Source: Sphingobacteriales bacterium (GTDB lineage Bacteria; Bacteroidota; Bacteroidia; Chitinophagales; Chitinophagaceae). Taken from it: a stretch of DNA of 64,000 nt. Below are positions 23,532-31,010 of the stretch, one piece after another; within the stretch, counting starts at the first letter, position 1, and every line of letters starts with the position of its first letter. The stretch lies in the NCBI GenBank assembly GCA_016200915.1, contig JACQDV010000057.1, forward strand, positions 1 to 64,000, given 5' to 3'. Both the position numbers and the translations under genes were made by a program. Below the pieces are notes generated by a model. That model searched no databases, was not told the origin of the DNA, and saw only the letters and a program-made list of their open reading frames with translations.

Positions 23532-24746
23532 ATGATTCAAACATCAAAAAGATTAGAGGGAATTGGTGAATACTATTTTTCTCAGAAGCTGAGGGAGATT
23601 GATGAATTGAATAAGCAGGGGAAGAATGTAATTAACCTTGGTATTGGCAGTCCTGATTTGCCGCCACATCCTGATGTGATTAAAGTATTACAGGAAGAAA
23701 GCAGCAAACCCAATACACATGCCTATCAATCATACAAAGGTTCGCCGGTGTTGCGTAAAGCGATGAGTGACTGGTATAATAAATGGTATGGTGTTGAATT
23801 AAATCCTGATACGGAAGTATTACCGCTGATAGGAAGTAAAGAAGGTATCATGCACATTTGCATGACCTATTTAAATGATGGCGACAAAGTTTTAATTCCC
23901 AATCCCGGTTATCCAACTTATACCAGTGCAGTAAAATTAGCAGGAGGAGTTTGTGTTGAATACGAATTAGATGATGATAATGATTGGAAGCCAAACTTTG
24001 CGGAATTAGGAAAATTATTTCAAACTAAAGATAATGAGGTAAGTGAGGTTGTGTCCCCTCCCGGGAGGGGCAGGGGTGGGTTTAAGCTGATGTTTGTGAA
24101 TTACCCGCATATGCCTACGGGAAAATTGCCTGAACAAAAATTCTTTGAAGAACTGGTTGCCTTTGCCAAAAAGCACAGCATACTAATTGTTCATGATAAT
24201 CCATATAGTTTTATTCTGAATGATTCACCCATGAGTTTATTAAGTGTGAATGATGCAAAAGAAGTGGTGCTGGAATTAAACTCCTTAAGTAAAAGCCAGA
24301 ATATGGCAGGATGGAGAATAGGGATGTTATGTGCTGCCAAAGAAAGAATTGATGAAGTGCTTCGCTTTAAAAGTAATATGGATAGCGGAATGTTTTTACC
24401 TGTGCAATTAGCAGCAGCAAAAGCATTAAGTCTCGGTAAAGATTGGTATGATAGCGTAAATGCAGTGTACAAACGCAGAAGAGAAAAAGCATTTGAGCTA
24501 CTTGATCTGCTTGGTTGTGAATATTCAAAAGACCAAGCTGGAATGTTTGTGTGGGCTAAAATCAACAGCCGCTATAAAGATTGTTATGATTGTGCTGATT
24601 TTGTTTTGTACAACAGCAATGTGTTCATTACACCTGGTGGAATATTTGGTAATGCCGGTAACAATTATGTGAGAGTGAGTTTGTGTGCTACAGAAGAAAA
24701 ATTTGAAGAAAGCATTAACCGTATTAAAAACAGTTTGAAAAATTGA
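23532..24746 (+). CDS. Class I/II PLP aminotransferase (aromatic operon)
   Basis: 404 residues. Fold-type I aminotransferase: INLGIGSPDLPPHPDV, NPGYPTYTSAVKLAGG, FVNYPHMPTGKLP (the NxPHxPTG substrate loop, near 190), HDNPYSFIL, and the PLP Lys254 in SLSKSQNMAGWRIGM. By position it supplies the transamination of phenylpyruvate, hydroxyphenylpyruvate or prephenate. Residues 175-184 (SPPGRGRGGF) are not part of the family fold; they are encoded by an inverted fragment of the operon's palindromic element (24055-24081), placed just before the conserved KLMFVNYPHMPTG strand, and read through in frame. Confidence 0.9.
   Translation: MIQTSKRLEGIGEYYFSQKLREIDELNKQGKNVINLGIGSPDLPPHPDVIKVLQEESSKPNTHAYQSYKGSPVLRKAMSDWYNKWYGVELNPDTEVLPLIGSKEGIMHICMTYLNDGDKVLIPNPGYPTYTSAVKLAGGVCVEYELDDDNDWKPNFAELGKLFQTKDNEVSEVVSPPGRGRGGFKLMFVNYPHMPTGKLPEQKFFEELVAFAKKHSILIVHDNPYSFILNDSPMSLLSVNDAKEVVLELNSLSKSQNMAGWRIGMLCAAKERIDEVLRFKSNMDSGMFLPVQLAAAKALSLGKDWYDSVNAVYKRRREKAFELLDLLGCEYSKDQAGMFVWAKINSRYKDCYDCADFVLYNSNVFITPGGIFGNAGNNYVRVSLCATEEKFEESINRIKNSLKN
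24055..24081 (-). repeat. In-frame copy of the GC-rich palindromic element inside the aminotransferase
   Basis: CCCCTCCCGGGAGGGG (24055-24070) followed by CAGGGGTGGGT. Read on the minus strand this is ACCCACCCCTG + CCCCTCCCGGGAGGGG, the left end of the long elements at 25611 and 26225. It adds ten residues without breaking the frame. Confidence 0.85.
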
Positions 24747-25610: not shown

Positions 25611-25775
25611 ACCCACCCCTTGCCCCTCCAGGGAGGGGGTGATTAGGGCTAATGCGTAAGTGATAGATAAAGTTCTTTTTAGACTAAAGTAATTTCTTAA
25701 ATAATTAAAGCTGTCTATACCCTCTTGGGAGGGGCGGAGAGTTTTGCAATAAATGAATGATTAAATGGGGTGGGT
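25611..25775 (+). mobile_element. 165-bp MITE/REP-like element, left copy
   Basis: Ends are ACCCACCCC and GGGGTGGGT, 9-bp perfect inverted repeats. Inside are a CCCCTCC..GGGAGGGG hairpin near the left end, a central AAAGTTCTTTTTAGA block, and GGGAGGGGCGGAGAG near the right end. Direct repeat of 26225-26390, with conserved blocks separated by diverged AT-rich stretches. It begins six bases after the tyrA stop and its right end is two bases before the DUF559 start codon. No clear target-site duplication. Confidence 0.85.
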
Positions 25776-25777
25776 GC

Positions 25778-26200
25778 ATGAAACGTAAAATCTTACCATA
25801 TAACCCAAACTTAAAAGAGCTGGCGAAAAAGCTTCGTCAAAACATGACTTATTCGGAAGTAAAGTTGTGGAATGTTTTGAAGGATGGGAAAATGATGGAG
25901 TATGATTTTGATAGGCAGAGGCCAATAGGAAATTATATAGTTGATTTTTATTGTAAGGATCTGATGCTGGCTTTGGAAGTGGATGGGATAACACACGATG
26001 ATGAAAAGGTGATACAGAAAGATGAGATACGACAAGAGGAGTTGGAAGGGATGGGTGTTTCGTTTTTAAGATTTAATGCGTTGGATGTAGTGAATGATTT
26101 TGATAATGTGCTGCGGAGCATCGAAGGATGGATAATGGATTATGAAGATAAGAATGGGATTAGTGAGTTTGTTTTGAAGAGAAGAGCTGAAAGAAAGTGA
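25778..26200 (+). CDS. DUF559 (Vsr/MutH-like) endonuclease-domain protein between two repeat elements
   Basis: 140 residues. LRQNMTYSEVKLWNVLKDGKM, then FDRQRPIGNYIVDFYCKDLMLALEVDG is the DUF559 core: the VDF...LEVDG pattern gives the Asp/Glu-x-Asp residues of a PD-(D/E)xK-type nuclease related to very-short-patch repair enzymes. FLRFNALDVVNDFDNVLRSI ends the domain, as in family members. The start at 25778 is preferred to an upstream ATG at 25757, which lies inside the repeat element. It interrupts the aromatic operon between tyrA and the DAHP synthase gene and is the only non-biosynthetic gene there. Function is unknown for this family; a link with the flanking repeats is inferred. Confidence 0.88.
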   Translation: MKRKILPYNPNLKELAKKLRQNMTYSEVKLWNVLKDGKMMEYDFDRQRPIGNYIVDFYCKDLMLALEVDGITHDDEKVIQKDEIRQEELEGMGVSFLRFNALDVVNDFDNVLRSIEGWIMDYEDKNGISEFVLKRRAERK

Positions 26201-26224
26201 GATTCTTTTAAGTGTGAGTGATTA

Positions 26225-26390
26225 ACCCACCCCTTACCCCTCCCGGGAGGGGATAAAGAAAAACAGCAAGAGTGACTGTTAAAGTTCTTTTTTAGATTGA
26301 AAAAATAATTTATTGAATTAAAGGCATGTTTATCTCCTCCACGGAGGGGCGGAGAGACTTTTAATAAATGAATGTATAAATGGGGTGGGT
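26225..26390 (+). mobile_element. 166-bp MITE/REP-like element, right copy
   Basis: Same orientation and plan as 25611-25775: ACCCACCCC start (26225), perfect CCCCTCCCGGGAGGGG palindrome at 26237-26252, AAAGTTCTTTTTTAGA, GGAGGGGCGGAGAG, AATAAATGAATG and TAAATGGGGTGGGT end (26390). Conserved blocks with the left copy leave little doubt that both derive from one element. Confidence 0.85.
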
Positions 26391-26423
26391 AAAAGATGAA
26401 TAGAATTGTTGTAGTACAAATGT

Positions 26424-26458
26424 GCGACGCAACGAAAGTAAAATAGCATTGCTGTCGC
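26424..26458. repeat. GCGACGCAA hairpin
   Basis: GCGACGCAA near the left and TTGCTGTCGC on the right pair with one bulge. The word AAATGTGCGACGC that starts it recurs at 37891-37903 upstream of pdhA. Confidence 0.5.
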
Positions 26459-26493
26459 CGGTAACATAAAAACAAAACCAAATTTTAATAGTT

Positions 26494-28666: not shown

Positions 28667-29968
28667 ATGAATGTTACCATATCACCTTCTTCAGTAAATG
28701 GAACGATACAGGCTCCAACTTCTAAAAGTTCGATGCAGAGAGCCTGTGCGGCAGCTTTACTGGTAAAGGGAAAAACTGTGATTAAGAATCCTGGATTCTC
28801 TAATGACGATAAAGCGGCAATGGACGTAATACAGAAATTGGGAACGAAAATTCAAATTGATAATGGACAGTTGATAGTGGATAGTGTTGGTGTAAATCCT
28901 GATAAATTAGAAATCAATACTGGTGAAAGCGGATTGGGTGTAAGAATGTTTACTCCAATTGTTGCGTTGAGTGAAAAAGAGATTTTGATTTCGGGTCATG
29001 GTAGTTTGATGGAAAGGCCGATGGATTTTTTTGACGAAATTCTGCCAAAGCTGGGAGTAAAGATTGAATCTAACAATGGTAAGCTGCCAATGAAAATCGA
29101 GGGGCCGTTGAAACCGGCTACCATTGAAATTGATGGTTCATTAAGTTCACAGTTTCTTACCGGTTTGCTGATGGCCTTTAGTGCTGCTGATGCAAAAGAT
29201 GTTTCTATCAAAGTAAATAACCTCAAGAGTCGTCCTTATGTTGATTTAACGTTAGCGGTGATGAAAGAATTTGGAATGAAAGTTCCGCAGAATAAAAACT
29301 ATGAAGCTTTTTATTTCGACTCAGATACTCACCACTCACCACTCACTACTCACAACTACACTGTGGAAGGTGACTGGAGCGGCGGAGCATTTTTATTGGT
29401 TGCAGCAGGAATTGCCGGTGACGTAACGGTAAATGGTTTGCAGAACACATCTACGCAAGCTGATAAAAAAATTATTGATGCTTTACTGGATGCAGGTGCT
29501 GATGTAACGGTGAATGATGATTCAATCAATATTAAAAAGAATAAACTGGAGGCATTTAGTTTTGATGCAACAGATTGTCCTGATTTATTTCCACCATTAG
29601 TAGCCTTAGCAGCGAATTGTAAAGGCATCACCAAAATACGTGGATTAAGAAGATTGAAACATAAAGAGAGCGATCGTGGTATTACTTTAAAAGAAGAGTT
29701 TGATAAACTGAGTACACAAATTGATTTGAATGATGATGAAATGCTGGTGCATGGTAATGGTGGAATCTTTGTAAAAAACCATACCATGAATTCACACAAT
29801 GATCATCGTATTGCAATGGCTGTAGCGGTAGCTTGTTTAAATGCTGATTTTGATGTGGAGATAAGAAATGCGGAAGCAGTAAATAAATCTTACCCCGATT
29901 TTTATCAGCACCTGCAAAAACTGGGAGTAAACGTAACTTTACCTAATAAGCAAACGGTTCATGAATAG
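28667..29968 (+). CDS. aroA: 3-phosphoshikimate 1-carboxyvinyltransferase (EPSP synthase)
   Basis: 433 residues. AroA motifs: APTSKSSMQRACAAALL, GESGLGVRMFTPIVAL, GSLSSQFLTGLLMA, DWSGGAFLLVAAGIAG, RLKHKESDR and NSHNDHRIAMAVAVA. Joins PEP to shikimate 3-phosphate. Two patches look foreign: residues 65-74 (DNGQLIVDSV) from 28856-28886, and residues 220-232 (DTHHSPLTTHNYT) from a CACCACTCAC string at 29327-29357. Both keep the frame. It overlaps aroC by eight bases. Confidence 0.95.
   Translation: MNVTISPSSVNGTIQAPTSKSSMQRACAAALLVKGKTVIKNPGFSNDDKAAMDVIQKLGTKIQIDNGQLIVDSVGVNPDKLEINTGESGLGVRMFTPIVALSEKEILISGHGSLMERPMDFFDEILPKLGVKIESNNGKLPMKIEGPLKPATIEIDGSLSSQFLTGLLMAFSAADAKDVSIKVNNLKSRPYVDLTLAVMKEFGMKVPQNKNYEAFYFDSDTHHSPLTTHNYTVEGDWSGGAFLLVAAGIAGDVTVNGLQNTSTQADKKIIDALLDAGADVTVNDDSINIKKNKLEAFSFDATDCPDLFPPLVALAANCKGITKIRGLRRLKHKESDRGITLKEEFDKLSTQIDLNDDEMLVHGNGGIFVKNHTMNSHNDHRIAMAVAVACLNADFDVEIRNAEAVNKSYPDFYQHLQKLGVNVTLPNKQTVHE
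28856..28886. repeat. ATTGATAATGGACAGTTGAT repeat inside aroA
   Basis: A string of GATAATGGACAGTTGATAG words like that inside lipB (14638-14663). Reads in frame. Confidence 0.5.
29327..29357. repeat. CACCACTCAC tandem repeat inside aroA
   Basis: About three and a half copies of a 7-8 base CACCACT/CACTACT word (31 bases) inside the coding sequence. CTCACCACTCACTACTCAC strings are otherwise typical of intergenic Bacteroidota DNA. Confidence 0.65.
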
Positions 29969-31010
29969 TTTTGGAAGATTATTACGAGTATCCATATTTG
30001 GCGAATCGCATGGAGAATGTGTGGGAATAACCATTGATGGTTGTCCTGCAGGTTTGTCTTTATCACCAGAAGATTTATTAGCTGACCTCGAAAGAAGAAA
30101 AGGTGGTAAGCAAAAAGGAACTACGCCAAGACAGGAAGAAGATTATCCTATTTTTAAGAGCGGTGTTTTTAATGGTAAGACAACAGGGTTTCCTATCACT
30201 ATTTTATTCGACAATAAAAATACCCGCAGCGAAGATTATAATAAACAAAGAAGCATACCACGGCCGGGCCATGCAGACTGGGTAGCTCATCAGAAATTTG
30301 GTGGCAATGAAGATTATCGTGGCGGCGGCCATTTTAGTGCAAGGTTAACAACGGGAATAGTGGCAGCAGGCGCTATTGCAAAGAAATTATTAACCCTCCC
30401 CAACCCCTCCCGGGAGGGGATAACTGGCCTCAGCATTCATGCAGAGGTGACGGAGATAGGCGGTGAAAAAGATTTAGAGAAAGGATTGCAAAGAGCAATT
30501 GATGCTAAAGATTCTGTTGGTGGAGTGGTGGAATGTAAAGTAACCGGTATGCCGGTTAGCATTGGTGAACCGTATTTTGATTCAGTTGAATCTGTTTTAT
30601 CGCACATATTATTTGCTATTCCTGCTGTAAGAGGAGTGGAGTTTGGAACTGGTTTCGCTGCAGCAAAAATGTTTGGCAGCGAACATAATGATGCGATTGA
30701 AAATATGGAAGGTAAAACGCAAAGCAATCATGCAGGTGGAATAGTAGGAGGTATCAGCAATGGAAATAATTTGGTTTTCCGTTTGGCAATTAAACCAACA
30801 TCCTCTACACCAAAAGAACAATACAGTTTAAACTGGGATACAGAACAAATGGAAAATTTTTCCATAAAAGGGAGACATGATCTTTGCGTGGCGTTAAGGG
30901 CACCTGTTATTGTGGAAGCCGTAACCGCATTAGTGCTGGCAGATTTTATGTTATTAGAACAACAAATACCGAGAGTGTTCCCCGGTTCGGGAATAATGAA
31001 TAAAGAATAA
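29961..31010 (+). CDS. aroC: Chorismate synthase
   Basis: 349 residues. AroC signatures: SFGRLLRVSIFGESHGECVG at the N-terminus, RSIPRPGHADWVAHQKFGGNEDYRGGGHFSARLTTGIVAAGAIAKK, and the C-terminal SIKGRHDLCVALRAPVIVEAV. FMN-dependent last step to chorismate. Residues 145-155 (TLPNPSREGIT) lie where the family has a short loop between KKLL and the ISxHA strand; they come from the palindromic element at 30393-30423, so the enzyme carries an in-frame insertion of about 11 residues. Starts within the last codons of aroA. Confidence 0.95.
   Translation: MNSFGRLLRVSIFGESHGECVGITIDGCPAGLSLSPEDLLADLERRKGGKQKGTTPRQEEDYPIFKSGVFNGKTTGFPITILFDNKNTRSEDYNKQRSIPRPGHADWVAHQKFGGNEDYRGGGHFSARLTTGIVAAGAIAKKLLTLPNPSREGITGLSIHAEVTEIGGEKDLEKGLQRAIDAKDSVGGVVECKVTGMPVSIGEPYFDSVESVLSHILFAIPAVRGVEFGTGFAAAKMFGSEHNDAIENMEGKTQSNHAGGIVGGISNGNNLVFRLAIKPTSSTPKEQYSLNWDTEQMENFSIKGRHDLCVALRAPVIVEAVTALVLADFMLLEQQIPRVFPGSGIMNKE
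30393..30423 (+). repeat. In-frame copy of the GC-rich palindromic element inside aroC
   Basis: ACCCTCCCCAA followed by the perfect CCCCTCCCGGGAGGGG palindrome (30404-30419) and ATAA. This matches the left end of the 26225 element, including the GGGGATAA after the palindrome. Confidence 0.85.

Follow-up and report, generated by a model that had tools for sequence, protein, structure and literature searches.

The BoxC/PIT/TM repeats of E. coli have been known since the early 1990s. Their consensus TMECO, CCCTCNCCCN3-6GGGNGAGGGN3GGGNGAGGG, describes a purine-motif intrastrand triplex, and the physical triplex has been demonstrated in vitro for the E. coli single strand only (PMC4666352). The 2015 survey of these repeats covered more than 260 genomes and linked them to genome instability; Holder et al. 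2015 state that mobility activities were never encountered in the vicinity of TMECO sites, and they left the origin of the repeats open. The repeats that flank DUF559 genes have their grammar in common with this class, and both occur as single copies or inverted pairs. However, BoxC/PIT/TM elements were previously known as repeats only, whereas the present data tie a nuclease gene to them across phyla. In the window—the whole 64-kb stretch of DNA analyzed here—the stems measure 7 nt (CCCCTCC) compared with 9 nt in TMECO, so that the repeats of the window depart from the literal TMECO consensus.

The REP/RAYT system (REPtron) features short GC-rich palindromes, which occur as inverted pairs and as solo and intragenic copies, and one small DNA-processing enzyme bracketed by repeats. 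The same holds for the DUF559 units. For GTAG REPs, the accepted hypothesis holds that RAYTs mobilize them (PMC3733652). The REPtron enzyme, however, is an HUH tyrosine transposase, whereas that of the DUF559 unit is of the PD-(D/E)XK type; the GTAG tag is missing, the tag being ACCCACCCC / CCTCACCCC; and, unlike the REPtron enzyme, DUF559 is often found in frame within essential genes in the host's order. A GTAG/RAYT REP was rejected for the different enzyme and the different repeats. Rickettsia palindromic elements and CGTC REPs resemble the present repeats by being palindromes in frame within genes, and CGTC REPs "lack a dedicated transposase" (PMC3733652); they were considered as a candidate. 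They are defined by a CGTC (or TGTC/CCTC) tag, an AT-starting stem of 8 to 9 bp, and a CCA tail. CGTC REPs differ in tag and stem and are not the repeat beside DUF559: they were rejected because the DUF559 genes of Pseudomonadota carry triplex repeats of the CCCTCACCC type, none of those displayed having the CGTC form.

On the protein side, the EDxHD homing endonuclease I-Bth0305I (3r3p) is similar to DUF559 in fold, in sequence, and in being inserted repeatedly at a single site within a conserved gene. In contrast to I-Bth0305I, DUF559 comes without intron or intein, is bracketed by repeats, and occupies many different host sites. NGO0050 (3hrl), YcjD, and Vsr have their fold in common with the DUF559 protein of the window; Vsr is detected by the profile of YcjD, which was assigned to the PD-(D/E)XK superfamily (PMC1189080). 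In the literature found on these three proteins, no earlier link to repeats was found. The repeats, the DUF559 family, and its fold are already known. In the initial annotation, such repeats with a PD-(D/E)xK/Vsr-like enzyme were not known as a described system—this stands for the link between DUF559 and triplex repeats, on which no paper was found in the non-subscription literature searched, but not for the repeats, which belong to a known class and obey the BoxC/PIT/TM grammar. A REP-like system whose nuclease is a homing-type PD-(D/E)XK enzyme and whose ends are triplex motifs is the description that suits the unit best.

The DUF559 locus of the window

The window carries an aromatic amino-acid operon, in which an element–DUF559–element unit is positioned between tyrA and aroG (Table 1). 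Sequence, Pfam match, and alignment bear out the initial reading that the gene is enclosed by two direct copies of a repeat with inverted ends, of 165 and 166 bp (25611–26390). Both elements start with ACCCACCCC and finish with GGGGTGGGT, and each thereby possesses the terminal inverted repeats that serve as a criterion for IS and MITE elements. Over 163 aligned positions, the two copies have 75% identity; their ends are highly conserved, whereas the middle varies. The ATG of the gene lies two bases beyond the left element and its stop ends 24 bases ahead of the right one; inside the left element, at 25757, is another in-frame ATG that could serve as the start.

Table 1. Positions of the unit and of the single repeats in the window (TM, triplex motif)
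Feature	Position	Strand	Description
Left element	25611–25775	+	165 nt; first part, terminal TM half 25611–25638 (ACCCACCCC-TTG-CCCCTCC/GGAGGGG)
Left element, inner parts		+	Variable spacer; inner hairpin 25719–25734; terminal GGGGTGGGT 25767–25775
DUF559 (PF04480) PD-(D/E)XK nuclease gene	25778–26200	+	As judged by Pfam profile, conserved residues, and structure model
Right element	26225–26390	+	166 bp; direct orientation; hairpins 26237–26252 and 26334–26349; terminal GGGGTGGGT 26382–26390
Single triplex-motif repeat	24055–24081	+	In frame within aminotransferase gene (23532–24746); absent from same-genus G002
Single 30-bp triplex-motif repeat	30390–30419	+	In frame within aroC (29961–31010); absent from G002

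The terminal sequence ACCCACCCC occurs five times in the 64 kb compared with 0.26 expected from shuffling, and the hairpin CCCCTCCnnGGAGGGG six times in the window compared with 0.41. A count over the 4.5-Mb genome, as the initial annotation had proposed, yields four complete elements, two of them at this DUF559 gene, and not a repeat of thousands of copies. The other two full copies are 183 and 196 bp long; all four have a 28-nt left end and an approximately 65-nt right end in common, with a variable spacer between them. Exactly four copies of the right end are present in the genome, and 12 of the 28-nt left half alone. Neither the complete element nor its right end was found across the eight related genomes searched.

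A conserved intergenic stretch of approximately 70 nt (GAACGTACAAGTGAGTGACACAAC...GCCGGTTAC) is present in 15 copies each in the same-genus genomes G000 and G002 (L411–L439), with a degenerate copy in the window at about 26398–26463. Full repeat elements directly adjoin this stretch at three of the four full copies. It matches no Rfam family and is a candidate structured RNA or another repeat.

The DUF559–element unit is supported as an insertion because the whole operon is present in the same-genus genome G002 (locus L140), with proteins 90–99% identical to those of the host, but carries neither the gene nor the elements. The junction comparison suggested at the outset thus returns an empty site, in agreement with the early impression that the unit had been inserted into the operon. 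In addition, a solo element elsewhere in the host genome has an empty orthologous site in G002. A target-site duplication is not visible in the sites compared, which are diverged.

The window protein matches PF04480 with an E-value of 1.4e-28 and 99.3 bits, above the curated cut-off of 20.6. Its structure model has a pLDDT of 90.8 and superimposes on NGO0050 with a TM-score of 0.88 and on the catalytic domain of I-Bth0305I with a TM-score of 0.79 to 0.80 (Foldseek E-value of 7.8e-5); the similarity to the latter is also apparent from the sequence (E-value of 3e-5). In the numbering of the 140-aa form, the motif comprises E27, D56, E67-x-D69, and H73. Among 60 DUF559 sequences, including members fused within host genes, E27, D56, E67, and D69 are invariant and H73 is conserved in at least 90%. 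As judged by the model, the gene product matches a Vsr/I-Bth0305I-like PD-(D/E)XK endonuclease; the initial expectation of such an enzyme in place of an HUH protein agrees with the homing-type fold found here. By analogy, the family can be an active nuclease, because a Caulobacter member, VsrA, triggers an SOS response in vivo if the cytosine methyltransferase is missing (PMC12907096).

Assignment to a known defense protein was rejected, PADLOC giving only a weak match to a type II methyl-directed REase, and so was a phage or plasmid gene, DUF559 occurring in 3 of 50,697 phage records and 45 of 72,556 plasmid records. Among sampled Pseudomonadota genomes, 108 of 299 contain DUF559. The Caulobacter phenotype would also be expected of a Vsr-like enzyme with a housekeeping role in mismatch repair or restriction, if terminator-like repeats framed its gene by chance. 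This is highly improbable: the presence of DUF559 is patchy (45 of 101 relatives), PIT elements are without terminator activity (cited in PMC4666352), and units also lie in frame within genes, where terminators are senseless.

Triplex motifs beside DUF559 genes across phyla

The association of DUF559 with repeats is real, very widespread, and broader than first noted. It was followed over 184 loci in three independent sets—one of 64 DUF559 domains of the host's order, one of 80 taken from named genomes in many phyla, and one of 40 from Pseudomonadota—spanning Bacteroidota, Pseudomonadota, Cyanobacteria, Chloroflexi, Planctomycetota, and Patescibacteria. GC-rich hairpins reach a density of 4 to 10 per kb within 100 to 200 bp of DUF559 compared with 0.2 to 0.8 per kb at a distance of 1 to 9 kb on the same contigs, an enrichment of approximately 10- to 30-fold. 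In the flanking repeats, a pyrimidine arm is followed by a loop and a purine arm; after a short gap of 2 to 4 nt comes the mirror image of the purine arm, in which T replaces A, as in GGAGAGGG..GGGTGAGG; the window version is GGAGGGG-CAA-GGGGTGG, and the window hairpins at 24055, 25623, 26237, and 30404 have seven to eight third-strand matches each. As judged by a rule-based detector, this third strand accompanies 41–58% of the hairpins near DUF559, 1–7% of the distant ones, and 0 of 39 near RAYTs.

A TM is observed on both sides of DUF559 at 64 of 184 loci (35%), compared with 2 of 7,749 sham gene positions (Fisher p of approximately 1e-107, indicative only because the sham positions overlap), and at approximately 36% of the loci no TM was detected on either side. 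The bracketing pair is inverted at 52 of the 64 loci. This inverted arrangement is the usual one, and the direct copies described in the initial annotation are peculiar to the window locus. The second DUF559 gene of the host genome is positioned between trpA and trpB, as read from the sequence, with palindromes flanking it. At the locus of Neisseria gonorrhoeae (L400), a block with two TM-type repeats lies 3′ of DUF559 in near-identical tandem copies approximately 281 bp apart.

Between different genomes, repeat similarity climbs with DUF559 identity (Spearman 0.25, permutation maximum 0.087, 171 loci). Where one genome holds DUF559 genes with less than 45% identity to each other, their repeats differ as much as repeats from separate genomes do. 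Repeat type appears to track the nuclease and not the genome—a unit-like co-inheritance that fits a unit travelling whole, with genome relatedness contributing. Of the relatives, 13 of the 45 that have DUF559 contain repeats of the CTCACCCC type, as do 3 of the 56 that lack it (p = 0.002). The largest and the third largest sets of this type (24 copies in G042 and 12 in G048) are found in genomes without DUF559; therefore, the repeats can be maintained, or can move, where no DUF559 gene is resident. In G042 (L378–L391), the approximately 24 repeats are of the GCCTCACCCC type, many with a conserved tail (GGGGCAATGTTT..TCGAATAGTG), and no DUF559 gene is present.

Repeats in the absence of DUF559, as in G042, G048, and ycjD-negative E. 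coli, would also be seen if TM repeats were hot spots of fragility or recombination where genes become captured, with DUF559 as trapped cargo and not as the mover. That TM sites are reported to be unstable and rearranged between E. coli strains (PMC4666352), and that the eef operon is found alternatively at the place of E. coli ycjD (PMC12817139), speaks for such capture. We nevertheless regard it as unlikely: other genes, represented by the sham positions, are practically never bracketed on both sides, repeat type goes with DUF559 relatedness, and one nuclease family is involved across phyla.

Mobilization of the repeats by another enzyme, for instance of the RAYT/HUH type, with the DUF559 units as passengers or composites, is a still less probable reading. 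The host genome does have two strong Y1_Tnp genes, and RAYTs have the hypothesized role for GTAG REPs stated above, but RAYTs in the same genomes as DUF559 have their own distinct flanking REPs, such as CGTTCCTACGGAACG, and none of the hairpins near RAYTs has the third strand. The RAYT-type transposases of L045, L352, L353, and L359 with their own REPs are a useful positive control.

Units in frame within host genes

Of the 64 DUF559 domains in the host's order, 27 lie in frame within host ORFs, defined by more than 120 open codons on each side of the domain, and are accompanied by flanking repeat-coded peptides. The host proteins are LeuS, MetH, homocysteine S-methyltransferase, adenine deaminase, and B12-binding/MeaB/methylmalonyl-CoA mutase proteins; AroC, MetG, HsdR, and an M23 peptidase were identified by eye. 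Beyond this order, the majority of DUF559 genes are free-standing, and MmeI, HsdR, and asparagine synthase are single fused cases. An intein was rejected, since the Pfam matches of the fused LeuS, MetH, and other ORFs include no such domain and the frame is continuous. A predicted structure of a LeuS–DUF559 fusion was set aside for its low confidence (pLDDT of 54).

Two loops of LeuS take up units: S1, which belongs to the editing domain, in 10 genera, and S2, which lies ahead of the MPGYAGSSW motif, in 3 genera, one of these three carrying units at both sites. The leuS gene of G016 (L056:7248–11192) contains two separate in-frame DUF559 units, one per hot site. At S2, the repeat-coded peptide stands alone in two other genera, and most have nothing. 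At one codon position of aroC, the site is empty in G002, holds the repeat alone in the host genome and G005, and holds the complete repeat–DUF559–repeat unit in G022.

Insertions at the same site recur in many genera, and the leuS S1 domains are clustered on the DUF559 tree, if not as one clade (4 label changes vs 9.3 after shuffling). Both observations would follow if DUF559 were a genuine homing-type endonuclease directed at fixed sites, the leuS loop among them, with its TMs only protecting the host reading frame or helping repair, and the closest solved functional relative, I-Bth0305I, is itself a homing endonuclease. This explanation is on the doubtful side, although less so than gene capture, given that closely related DUF559 domains occupy different host genes (metH, metG, adenine deaminase, and M23), that outside the host's order most are intergenic and free-standing, and that an intron or intein domain was not found in the fused ORFs.

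Proposed mode of spread and the E. coli case

Instead, DUF559 and its surrounding repeats probably constitute one selfish unit, whose nuclease would cut its own TMs so that repair spreads the unit or its ends. The ends would consist of a hairpin with a mirror-image third strand—the "triplex motif" of BoxC/PIT—mostly in inverted orientation. The nuclease would recognize the TM of its own family, either as sequence or as an unusual structure exposed during replication, and cut there; repair may then copy the TM–DUF559–TM unit, or the TM ends alone, to new places. Non-autonomous derivatives or remnants would account for single TMs and for paired ones such as the 165-bp element. Within genes, only in-frame insertions would survive; therefore, the nuclease could become an internal domain of an essential enzyme. 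This mechanism of cutting and repair-mediated spread is plausible. Evidence to the contrary comes from the repeats kept in genomes that lack DUF559, the DUF559 loci with no TM detected on either side, the lack of a visible target-site duplication at the diverged sites compared, the scarcity of DUF559 in phages and plasmids, and the E. coli BoxC polymorphisms described below. DUF559 is a candidate for the missing mover of triplex-type repeats because nuclease gene and repeats travel together across many phyla, even within essential genes; the mobilization itself would be the work of the nuclease. More tentatively, the units may form a previously unrecognized class of transposase-free mobile elements—a homing-type PD-(D/E)XK nuclease with triplex-forming ends that cuts triplex/BoxC motifs, seeds solo repeats across phyla, and inserts as a translated, non-spliced domain in essential enzymes.

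The E. coli representative of the family is ycjD, a DUF559 gene between sapF and fabI, with a literal TMECO motif adjoining it: the BoxC copy TMECO 9 on the fabI side, identical in sequence to copies 16, 19, and 22. It is present in 3,364 of 5,426 complete E. coli genomes. Further BoxC places number 11 to 24 (median 17) with ycjD compared with 1 to 16 (median 5) without in a 60-record sample, a contrast that is confounded by phylogroup, strains with a divergent ycjD allele having approximately 12 to 13 like several ycjD-negative strains. The place between sapF and fabI is taken either by ycjD or by the eef efflux operon (L402 vs L403–L405), eef having been identified in the literature as the operon at this site in ycjD-negative strains; a clean empty site was rejected, as the ycjD-negative strains examined have this other operon there. 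Aligned BoxC polymorphisms resemble deletions or replacements and not fresh insertions: tauD–hemB is a replacement, the yjdP–phnP variants look like deletions, one of them between TCGCCCCT repeats, and the zntA–tusA BoxC is conserved. Because of the confounded counts, the other operon at ycjD-negative sites, and these polymorphisms, E. coli is probably an old, mostly inactive case, yet convenient for testing.

If a DUF559 nuclease acts on BoxC, the question of the origin of these repeats can be put to the test in E. coli K-12 through a single gene, ycjD. If the proposal is true, the unit would be a non-HUH counterpart to the RAYT/REP system, DUF559 as a widespread family of "unknown function" would gain a function, and the odd nuclease domains inserted in LeuS, MetH, AroC, and other essential enzymes would be explained.
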